Of a stretch of DNA of 64,000 nt, positions 2,792 to 54,975 are shown piece after piece. The notes below the pieces were generated by a model that was not told where the DNA came from, did not search any database, and saw only the letters and a list, made by a program, of their open reading frames with translations. Source of the stretch: Gammaproteobacteria bacterium. Its GTDB lineage: Bacteria; Pseudomonadota; Gammaproteobacteria; Ga0077536. The first letter of the stretch is position 1; each line of letters opens with the position of its first letter. The DNA is taken from positions 1-64,000 of the forward strand of contig JADLGE010000041.1 in the NCBI GenBank assembly GCA_020849475.1, written 5' to 3'. A program made the translations under genes and the position numbers.

Positions 2792-3121
2792 TCACCCACC
2801 GCTCAGCCGTTCACTGAAATTGAGCCCCACCACGCCGAGCGTGATCACGCCAATGGAAACCAGCTTGGCGATGGTGGCCGGTTCCTTGAACCAGACGATG
2901 CCGATGAGCGCAATCAAGGTCATCCCTAACGCCGACCAGATGGCATAGGCGACGCTGATGTCGATGCTGCGCACGGCCAAGGTCAGCAGCCCGATGCTGC
3001 ACCCGTAGCACACGAACACCGTGATGGACGGCAGCGGATGCTGAAAGCCGTCGGAAAGCTTCATGGCCGTGGTGCCGGTCACTTCGAACACAATGGCGAG
3101 GATGAGATAAAGCCAGGACAT
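2792..3121 (-). CDS. Small multidrug resistance (SMR) family efflux transporter
   Basis: This four-helix inner-membrane protein of 109 residues works as an antiparallel dimer exchanging protons for cationic compounds. The start at 3121 (MSWLYLILAI) is preceded by GGAGGAG at good spacing; the longer frame to 3160 would run into the methyltransferase gene. The essential membrane-embedded glutamate is Glu13 in FEVTGTTAMKLSDGF, and helix 3 carries YAIWSALG with the conserved Trp. The GTTAMKLS signature is nearer to the EmrE/Qac branch than to the guanidinium exporters (Gdx/SugE). It lies 35 bases downstream of a methyltransferase that resembles N-methylating enzymes, so a quaternary amine product might be its substrate; that is inference. 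Confidence 0.9.
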   Translation of the reverse strand: MSWLYLILAIVFEVTGTTAMKLSDGFQHPLPSITVFVCYGCSIGLLTLAVRSIDISVAYAIWSALGMTLIALIGIVWFKEPATIAKLVSIGVITLGVVGLNFSERLSGG

Positions 3122-3156
3122 GAAATGCGCTCCTCCGCGAGCCGGGTATTCGCTGT

Positions 3157-4172
<1,016 letters not shown>

Positions 4173-52970: not shown

Positions 52971-53438
52971 TCATTCCAACAGACACACGGCGCTCGCGGC
53001 GATGCCTTCACCGCGACCGGTGAAACCCATCTTCTCGGTGGTGGTGCCCTTGACGTTGATGGCCTCGATGGCGAGCCCGGTGTCTTCGGCGATGTTCTGA
53101 CGCATGGTCTCGACGTGGGCTGAAATGCGCGGACGCTCGCAGATCGCCACCGCGTCGATGTTGATTATCTGCAGGCCCGCGTCATCCAGCAGTTCTTTGA
53201 CACGGCGCAACAGCACGCGGCTGCTCACCCCCTTGTAGGCCGGATCGGAATCGGGAAAGTGACGACCGATGTCGCCGAGCGCGGCGGCGCCGAGCAGCGC
53301 ATCGCAGATCGCATGCAACAGCACGTCGCCATCGGAATGCGCCGCCAGACCCTGCTCGAACGGAATGTGCACGCCGCCCAGCACCACGTGGTCGCCGTCC
53401 TTGAATCGATGGGCGTCGTAGCCCTGCCCTACTCTCAT
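52971..53438 (-). CDS. ispF: 2-C-methyl-D-erythritol 2,4-cyclodiphosphate synthase
   Basis: IspF closes the cyclodiphosphate ring in the MEP isoprenoid pathway. The 155-residue protein has the metal motif [12 protein letters not shown] (Asp8, His10), [18 protein letters not shown] and the C-terminal [23 protein letters not shown]. It overlaps ispD by four bases (ATGA). Confidence 0.97.
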
Positions 53439-54157
53439 TGCGTCGGCCCTCCCCGGGCGGCTTGCGCCTGCGCGGCCAGGATCATGCCGGCCAGCGCAAG
53501 GTCTTCAGGATGCGTGATTTTGAGATTGTCGGCGCTGCCCGCCACCACGCGCGGCGTGAGGCCGATGCGTTCGATGGCCTGCGCTTCGTCGGTCACGACC
53601 ACGCCGTCGGCGAGCGCGGTTTCAATGGCGCCCGTCAAAGTGCCGAGGCGGAACATCTGCGGTGTCAGTGCATGCCAGAGCTGGGTGCGATCGACAGTCG
53701 CGATGATTGCGCCGTGTGCATCGCAACGCTTCAAGGTGTCGCGCACCGGCGCGGCGAGTATGCCGCCCACTTCGTCGTCGCCCAAGGTGACAAGCATGCG
53801 ATCAAGATCAGTGATGCGCACGCACGGCCGCGCGGCGTCGTGCACCAGCACCCAATCGTCGGGCCCGGCATGGGCGGCCAATGCGTGCAAGGCCGACAGC
53901 ACCGAGTGACAACGCTCGGCGCCACCCGCGGCGCTGCTTACCTTGCCCGGCAATTTTGCGCGCAGGTCTTCGAAATATTCATCGCCCGCGCTGATCGCCA
54001 CCACCACTTTCTGAATCAGTGCATGACCGGCGAGGCGCCACAACGTGTGTTCCAGCACCGAGCGGCCGGCGAGTTCGAGATATTGCTTGGGCACGGCCGA
54101 GCCCATGCGCTTGCCGGCGCCGGCGGCAGGGACCACTGCGTAGACGGCGCCGTTCAT
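53435..54157 (-). CDS. ispD: 2-C-methyl-D-erythritol 4-phosphate cytidylyltransferase
   Basis: IspD attaches CMP to MEP. The 240-residue protein has the nucleotide-binding [25 protein letters not shown] and [14 protein letters not shown]. It ends in a Gln/Ala-rich tail. It overlaps ftsB upstream and ispF downstream by four bases each, so the three are translated in sequence. Confidence 0.97.
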
Positions 54158-54975
54158 TCGAAGGTCGCCGCTTTACGCGCTGGCGGTGGGGCGCTGGTGG
54201 GCGCCTTGGCGGCGGGTCGCGACGGCGCGGCGGGATTGATGGTCCGCGCGCTGGTCGTCGATGGGCTGCTGACACCGGCCTTGGTCTTGCTCGTGTTCGT
54301 AGTCGGCACGGTGCTCTTGGTGGCGGTCGTGGTTCTGGGGACGGTTGCGGCTGGCTTGGCCGGCGCCGGGCTCGACGGCTTCACCGTCGGTTTGCTGGTG
54401 GTGGCTTTGGCCGCCACCGCCGGCGCGGCTTTCGCCGTCGTTTTCGCGCCGCTGCTGGTCGCTGGCTTGCTGGCGGTCGAGCCATTGCCCTTGGCCGCAG
54501 TGGCGCTCTTGGCCGCCGCCGCCGCGACGATGGCTTTCACCATCGGCTTGACCGAGGCCGCTTTGTCTTGCGCTACCGGCGGCGACGCCGGACTGCCCGC
54601 CGCCGCGACGTCTACCGGCGCCAAGGGATCGAGCGGTGGCTCGAGCGGCGCCTCGATGCCGTTGGCGAGGCCGCTGGCATTGCGTGCCTTGTCATGTTCG
54701 TGGTTGGGGTCGGTGATACGGAAGAACACTTCGCCGTTCTTGATCATGCCCATCTCACTGCGCGCGCGCTCTTCGATGGCCTCGAGACCTTGCTTGAGAT
54801 CCATCACTTCCGCGGCCAGCGAGCGATTGCGCTCTTTCAAGCGCGCAATCTCATCTTTCTGCTCGGCCACCGAGGTCTTCAATTTCTCGACGTCGTGTTT
54901 GCCACCGCGCGTGTACCAGAGCCCGTACTGCAGGTACATCGTGAGCAGCACCAGCACAATGATGACCAGGCGCAC
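54154..54975 (-). CDS. ftsB: Cell division protein FtsB with a long periplasmic extension
   Basis: FtsB forms the FtsQBL division complex. Residues 1-92 are the normal protein: a short cytoplasmic start, membrane helix (RLVIIVLVLLTMYLQYGLW), coiled coil (about 28-75, VEKLKTSVAEQKDEIARLKE) and the conserved SEMGMIKNGEVFFRITDP. It then continues for about 180 residues with Ala/Lys/Thr/Pro/Ser-rich, low-complexity sequence (many TTxxK and AAKA repeats), giving 273 residues against the usual 90-110. The start is GTG at 54975. The eno-ftsB-ispD-ispF order confirms the identity. The extension is predicted to be disordered and to sit in the periplasm. Confidence 0.92.
   Translation of the reverse strand: MRLVIIVLVLLTMYLQYGLWYTRGGKHDVEKLKTSVAEQKDEIARLKERNRSLAAEVMDLKQGLEAIEERARSEMGMIKNGEVFFRITDPNHEHDKARNASGLANGIEAPLEPPLDPLAPVDVAAAGSPASPPVAQDKAASVKPMVKAIVAAAAAKSATAAKGNGSTASKPATSSGAKTTAKAAPAVAAKATTSKPTVKPSSPAPAKPAATVPRTTTATKSTVPTTNTSKTKAGVSSPSTTSARTINPAAPSRPAAKAPTSAPPPARKAATFE

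Follow-up and report, generated by a model that had tools for sequence, protein, structure and literature searches.

A long, probably disordered C-terminal arm on FtsB in one gammaproteobacterial genus

Septal wall synthesis is switched on by the FtsQBL complex. In E. coli FtsB, residues 64–87 suffice for FtsQ binding, in which R72–E82 and F84 matter, residues 88–103 are disordered in the crystal and the protein truncated at D90 is fully functional (PMC6134095). FtsB proteins of M. tuberculosis, M. leprae and M. ulcerans possess residues past the FtsQ/FtsL-binding segment, which are partly disordered (PMC12004960, PMC9846249), and in M. tuberculosis a conserved C-terminal helix located after a spacer docks onto PerM (PMC12004960). 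The outer domain of DivIC, the FtsB homologue of S. aureus, binds the wall via teichoic acids (PMC9652317).

The FtsB described here is encoded in the window, i.e., the whole analysed stretch of 64,000 nucleotides from a gammaproteobacterial draft genome (137 contigs, GC content of DNA about 71%). As judged from the sequences of the neighbouring genes, ftsB is preceded by eno and followed by ispD and ispF, and the ftsB-ispD-ispF order is the same as in E. coli K-12; in contrast, FtsB of K-12 comprises 103 aa (312 bases with the stop codon) and the window protein 273 aa. The GTG start codon is immediately preceded by TAA. The short C-terminus, which is usual for FtsB though not demanded by the curated models, is absent, and the protein continues for 188 residues past position 85, or 181 past residue 92, in agreement with the tail of about 180 residues read in the earlier note. 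The tail (54154–54699) is in frame with the core and its end overlaps ispD by ATGA. The long + strand frames opposite the tail were attributed to the scarcity of stops in the complement of GC-rich coding DNA rather than to antisense genes.

Table 1. Features of the ftsB locus (positions of the window)
Feature	Position	Strand	Remarks
ftsB, 273 aa + stop	54154..54975	-	GTG start; DivIC and NCBIfam FtsB profiles
N-terminal helix, residues 2–22	54910..54972	-	predicted helix; transmembrane role by homology to E. coli FtsB
Conserved FtsB core, residues 1–92	54700..54975	-	TM, coiled coil 26–75, FtsQ-binding segment ~64–87
Tail part 1, residues 93–136	54568..54699	-	Ala/Pro-rich, net charge -4
Tail part 2, residues 137–273	54157..54567	-	Ala/Thr/Pro/Ser/Lys-rich, net charge +19
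Ala-rich predicted helix within the tail, residues 143–158	54502..54549	-	block pLDDT 75 and 69; low confidence
ATGA, ftsB stop overlapping ispD start	54154..54157	-	
ispD, downstream neighbour of ftsB	53435..54157	-	

The assignment of the frame to FtsB, proposed earlier from the bare sequence, was borne out by the profile searches. The DivIC model (PF04977) matched residues 12–89 with an E value of 8.4e-23 (80.4 bits, cut-off 28.9) and the NCBIfam FtsB equivalog NF002058 gave 116.7 bits against a cut-off of 101. FtsB chains of solved structure, which we take to be those of E. coli and P. aeruginosa, aligned to residues 4–90. One of these structures, 6h9n, is that of the E. coli protein (PMC6134095). 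Among 43 aligned FtsB sequences the FtsQ-contact residues R72 and E82 (E. coli numbering) were invariant and F84 was conserved in at least 90%, and the window protein has all three; since these contacts are complete in the core, the FtsQ-binding end is intact and the tail comes after it. An AlphaFold2 model built with the 43 sequences predicted helices 2–22 and 26–75 at high pLDDT (97 and 92 for the two blocks of residues 1–20, and 85–97 across the first 70 residues), corresponding to the N-terminal anchor and the coiled coil. The window FtsB was the single DivIC match in its genome. A second candidate (G000:C95) was a weak match within a 279-aa coiled-coil protein and was rejected, its likeness to FtsB being limited to the coiled coil. 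The FtsB partners FtsL and FtsQ were found in the same genome and in the six relatives searched, as were SPOR proteins, and the tail thus replaces no obvious missing SPOR part. The FtsQ reading of this genome stops soon after the segment expected to contact FtsB and has no matching tail.

Residues 93–273 are composed of Ala (26%), Pro (14%), Thr (13%), Ser (11%) and Lys (10%), with a low fraction of Gly (0.04). The tail had been called basic in the earlier note, which holds for residues 137–273 with a net charge of +19 and not for residues 93–136, the net charge of which is -4. Past residue 92 the Lys to Arg ratio was 18:5, whereas five neighbouring proteins together gave 64:199 (Fisher p 3.7e-7), a contrast driven largely by the Arg-rich PurL (11:116), eno alone giving 22:20. 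GC pressure alone would be expected to favour Arg and Gly. In the AlphaFold2 model the tail had a pLDDT of mostly 41–62 in blocks of ten residues, with a somewhat better end (58–70), so that it is probably disordered in the cell; by analogy with the known topology of FtsB, it would be located in the periplasm. No wall-binding domain was detected in the protein, and no SPOR domain was present among 15 Pfam matches up to an E value of 10. In the PDB the tail matched a Mycoplasma protein (E 0.0066), which was considered a compositional coincidence. When the tail was used as a query against six genomes, nothing convincing was found beyond the tail itself, the other six matches having E values of 0.035 to 1 and internal stops.

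Low-complexity regions rich in Ser, Thr, Pro and Ala are typical targets of O-glycosylation, and on its composition the tail might be a substrate of a general system for such modification, forming a glycosylated brush. This explanation is very improbable, as PglL_A (PF15864), the model of PglL-type ligases, had matches in none of 10 genomes including the source genome, a weak negative given that the model spans 26 positions.

The comparison with relatives was based on a family profile search of 36 genomes, the same 36 that were covered by a search at the level of the order. Out of 31 matches, one (G020) proved to be a different protein, leaving 30 FtsB sequences. The tails past position 85 counted 188 residues in the window, 114 in a member of the same genus (G019) and 3–32 in the other 28, the tail of 3 aa belonging to a locus (L029) that runs off its stretch; the unusual length claimed for the tail thus holds within the family. 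In G020, the third representative of the genus, the assembly contains neither ftsB nor a true match to ispD, so that this genome is uninformative. The core is 81% identical to that of the window in G019 and 70% identical in the sister genus g4, whose tails are 18 aa long; between the window and G019 it differs by 27 synonymous and 15 amino-acid-changing codons out of 90. Among 80 public loci, several of which are genomes already in the family set, the longest tails were of 114 (L032, the same as that of G019) and 83 residues (L069), the remaining ones not exceeding 32. The L069 match (about 2944–3447) is a gammaproteobacterial FtsB, the 83-residue tail of which is of mixed charge and unlike that of the window in composition.

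Orthologues of normal length had been named beforehand as an outcome that would speak against the tail. Such tail-less orthologues are indeed what the sister genera have, but the congener G019 has a tail, so the extension stays real. An artefact, i.e., a frameshift, a lost stop or a misassembly, could be suspected in a draft genome in so many contigs, and it was rejected as extremely improbable: in the congener the same frame likewise stays open as far as the ATGA junction, the sister genus has this junction too and the codon use of the tail matches that of the core, with GC3 amounting to 0.82 in both. The earlier description of a continuous frame coupled to ispD, not produced by the assembly, is therefore upheld. 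The end of ftsB reads GAA-TGA, overlapping the ATG of ispD, in the window, in G019 and in two g4 genomes. As the short-tailed sister genus has the same junction, the simplest account is that the extra codons were acquired within the frame before an old stop, and not by stop loss. Duplication is suggested as one route of tail growth by a 33-bp tandem repeat within the tail of G019 (2.6 copies, 88% matches). No strong tandem repeat was detected in the tail of the window (scores 30–42).

The two congeners share the order of charges, acidic and then basic, the parts being split at a common PPVAQ: -4/+19 in the window and -3/+10 in G019, where the basic part extends over 60 residues. The alignment of the two tails was no better than that of shuffled sequences, as 51 of 500 shuffles reached the score for the full tail and 368 of 500 for the basic part. 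Due to this lack of alignment, no motif of the tail is under visible constraint, and at the level of sequence only the make-up and the acidic-then-basic order are common to the congeners. This bears on the idea that a short binding element, such as the Ala-rich helix 143–158, docks on another membrane or division protein with the remainder serving as a spacer. The helix is predicted with better pLDDT than most of the tail and the PerM-docking helix of M. tuberculosis FtsB constitutes a precedent (PMC12004960); however, the Ala-rich helix falls in a region that cannot be aligned with the congener tail. Ala runs are also readily modelled as helices. A docking element of this kind was accordingly considered improbable.

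A class-wide sample was used to place the tail among more distant FtsB proteins. FtsB was matched in 341 of 369 genomes, with 309 of the matches listed (149 + 160) and 32 not. All listed frames of at least 163 aa and some shorter ones, 40 in total, were fetched; frames of up to 162 aa allow a tail of at most 77. The fetched long frames were mostly long through the upstream run of the stop-to-stop frame, their tails having 4–72 aa, including those of L254 and L255, which were badly placed by the profile or ended oddly and were both short. The window tail is thus by far the longest among the FtsB surveyed and, among the 309 of 341 matches listed, the only one above 77 residues. Basic Ala/Lys/Pro tails of 67–72 residues with a net charge of +4 were found in family f69, in three genomes of two genera (G103, G233 and G336; L244, L257 and L248). 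Since many tails elsewhere are short, their presence suggests an origin separate from that of the window tail. The other long tails of the sample were acidic or not basic, e.g., in G291, G294 and G183. Two of these genomes (G294 and G183; L256 and L258) belong to family f149, and their FtsB-like proteins carry acidic Pro-rich tails of 63–67 residues with similar ends.

The C-terminus was variable across the FtsB surveyed (3–48 aa in most), which is in accordance with a near-neutral expansion of the tail. The end of FtsB past about residue 90 would then be dispensable, and GC-rich low-complexity codons would accumulate by slippage and small duplications, with selection acting only against harmful products. 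The tandem repeat in the congener tail, the alignment of the congener tails no further than composition and the activity of E. coli FtsB truncated at D90 (PMC6134095) argue for this explanation. On the other hand, Lys prevails over Arg and Gly is low despite the high GC content, the charge order is identical in both congeners, the window tail contains no strong tandem repeat and basic tails also exist in a second family, f69. Such an expansion remains a serious alternative, with a probability somewhat below even, and it is about as likely as a tethering of the tail to the wall.

To see how far the composition of the tail departs from its own genome, 603,119 bases of the latter (the window and 29 stretches) were screened, yielding 3,125 stop-to-stop frames of at least 90 aa in all reading frames. 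Twenty of the stretches were contig starts picked blind and nine came from contigs already in view, including one near ftsL and one holding a weak match to the tail query. The FtsB tail had the highest share of A/K/P/T/S per 80 residues containing at least five Lys (0.875, the Lys condition having been fixed after the tail had been seen), followed by 0.725. This runner-up (L228:659-1210) has a histone-like Lys/Ala/Pro N-terminus and a globular-looking second half. In stretches chosen for their SPOR matches, the corresponding A/K/P/T/S values were 0.81 for a DamX-like and 0.76 for a DedD-like protein, two of the six SPOR matches of the genome. Their names are based on SPOR domains above the Pfam cut-off and partial NCBIfam matches below the curated cut-offs, and the DedD-like protein scored slightly better on the RlpA and FtsN models. 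In both proteins an A/K/P/T-rich segment directly precedes the SPOR domain, and these predicted linkers are the nearest compositional likeness to the FtsB tail in the genome. In composition and setting they resemble it as long A/K/P/T arms on inner-membrane division proteins, but they end in a SPOR domain, whereas the FtsB tail ends free. The linker of E. coli DedD was found to be unstructured by NMR (PMC7642682). Three of the five SPOR matches of G019 (L199, L200 and L201; C273, C222 and C192) lie about 75–235 bases from a contig end, as if the low complexity of the linkers preceding SPOR had interrupted the assembly.

Taken together, the observations speak for an otherwise normal FtsB with a real, lineage-specific arm in the periplasm, which is probably disordered. 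The proposed mechanism is that an FtsB with the usual N-terminal anchor, coiled coil with FtsL and FtsQ-binding end gained a long disordered arm in this genus. The arm would leave the FtsQ-bound end and be free in the periplasm, as the part with the canonical function extends no further than about residue 90. With its positive charge and Ala/Pro/Thr/Ser make-up it could reach toward anionic polymers of the septal envelope by weak, non-specific attraction, adding local avidity or spacing to FtsQBL in the manner of the DamX/DedD linkers, minus the terminal SPOR domain. The tethering is proposed on the grounds of the composition, the likeness to DamX/DedD and the wall-binding homologue DivIC of S. 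aureus (PMC9652317). Evidence in favour of the arm comprises the excess of Lys over Arg, the congener tail with the same charge order, the basic tails of f69 and the low pLDDT; against it count the lack of congener alignment, the tail-less g4, the absence of a SPOR or wall-binding domain and the PurL-driven Lys/Arg contrast. A normal FtsB with a genus-specific disordered periplasmic arm, flexible and weakly attracted to the wall, is therefore put forward tentatively, at a little less than an even chance. From these analogies we infer that the tail may contact the wall or other envelope polymers, and it would presumably be of benefit to the cell.

A broader possibility is that in at least two gammaproteobacterial lineages (in the GTDB sense) FtsB separately acquired a SPOR-less basic arm that links FtsQBL directly with the septal wall, the state of which would then be read by FtsB itself in addition to FtsN and other SPOR proteins. 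This appears unlikely.

Compared with the described systems, the mycobacterial FtsB proteins are extended at both ends, and the window FtsB only C-terminally, by a basic, low-complexity sequence in which no conserved motif was seen. DivIC of the Gram-positive S. aureus uses for binding its ordinary outer domain, about 74 aa in size, with no tail of the window's kind described in the available excerpts of that study (PMC9652317). No tail of such kind was named for a Gram-negative FtsB in the accessible portions of the open-licence PubMed Central literature. Disordered ends of FtsB are already known from mycobacteria (PMC9846249), and the new part is the length, the composition and the Gram-negative setting.

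If FtsB carries a wall-attracted arm in some lineages, these would provide a natural experiment on wall sensing by the activator complex of Gram-negative bacteria, and the free end of FtsB would be shown to tolerate the addition of functions. A neutral arm would instead indicate the amount of disordered sequence that can be accommodated by an essential subunit of the divisome.
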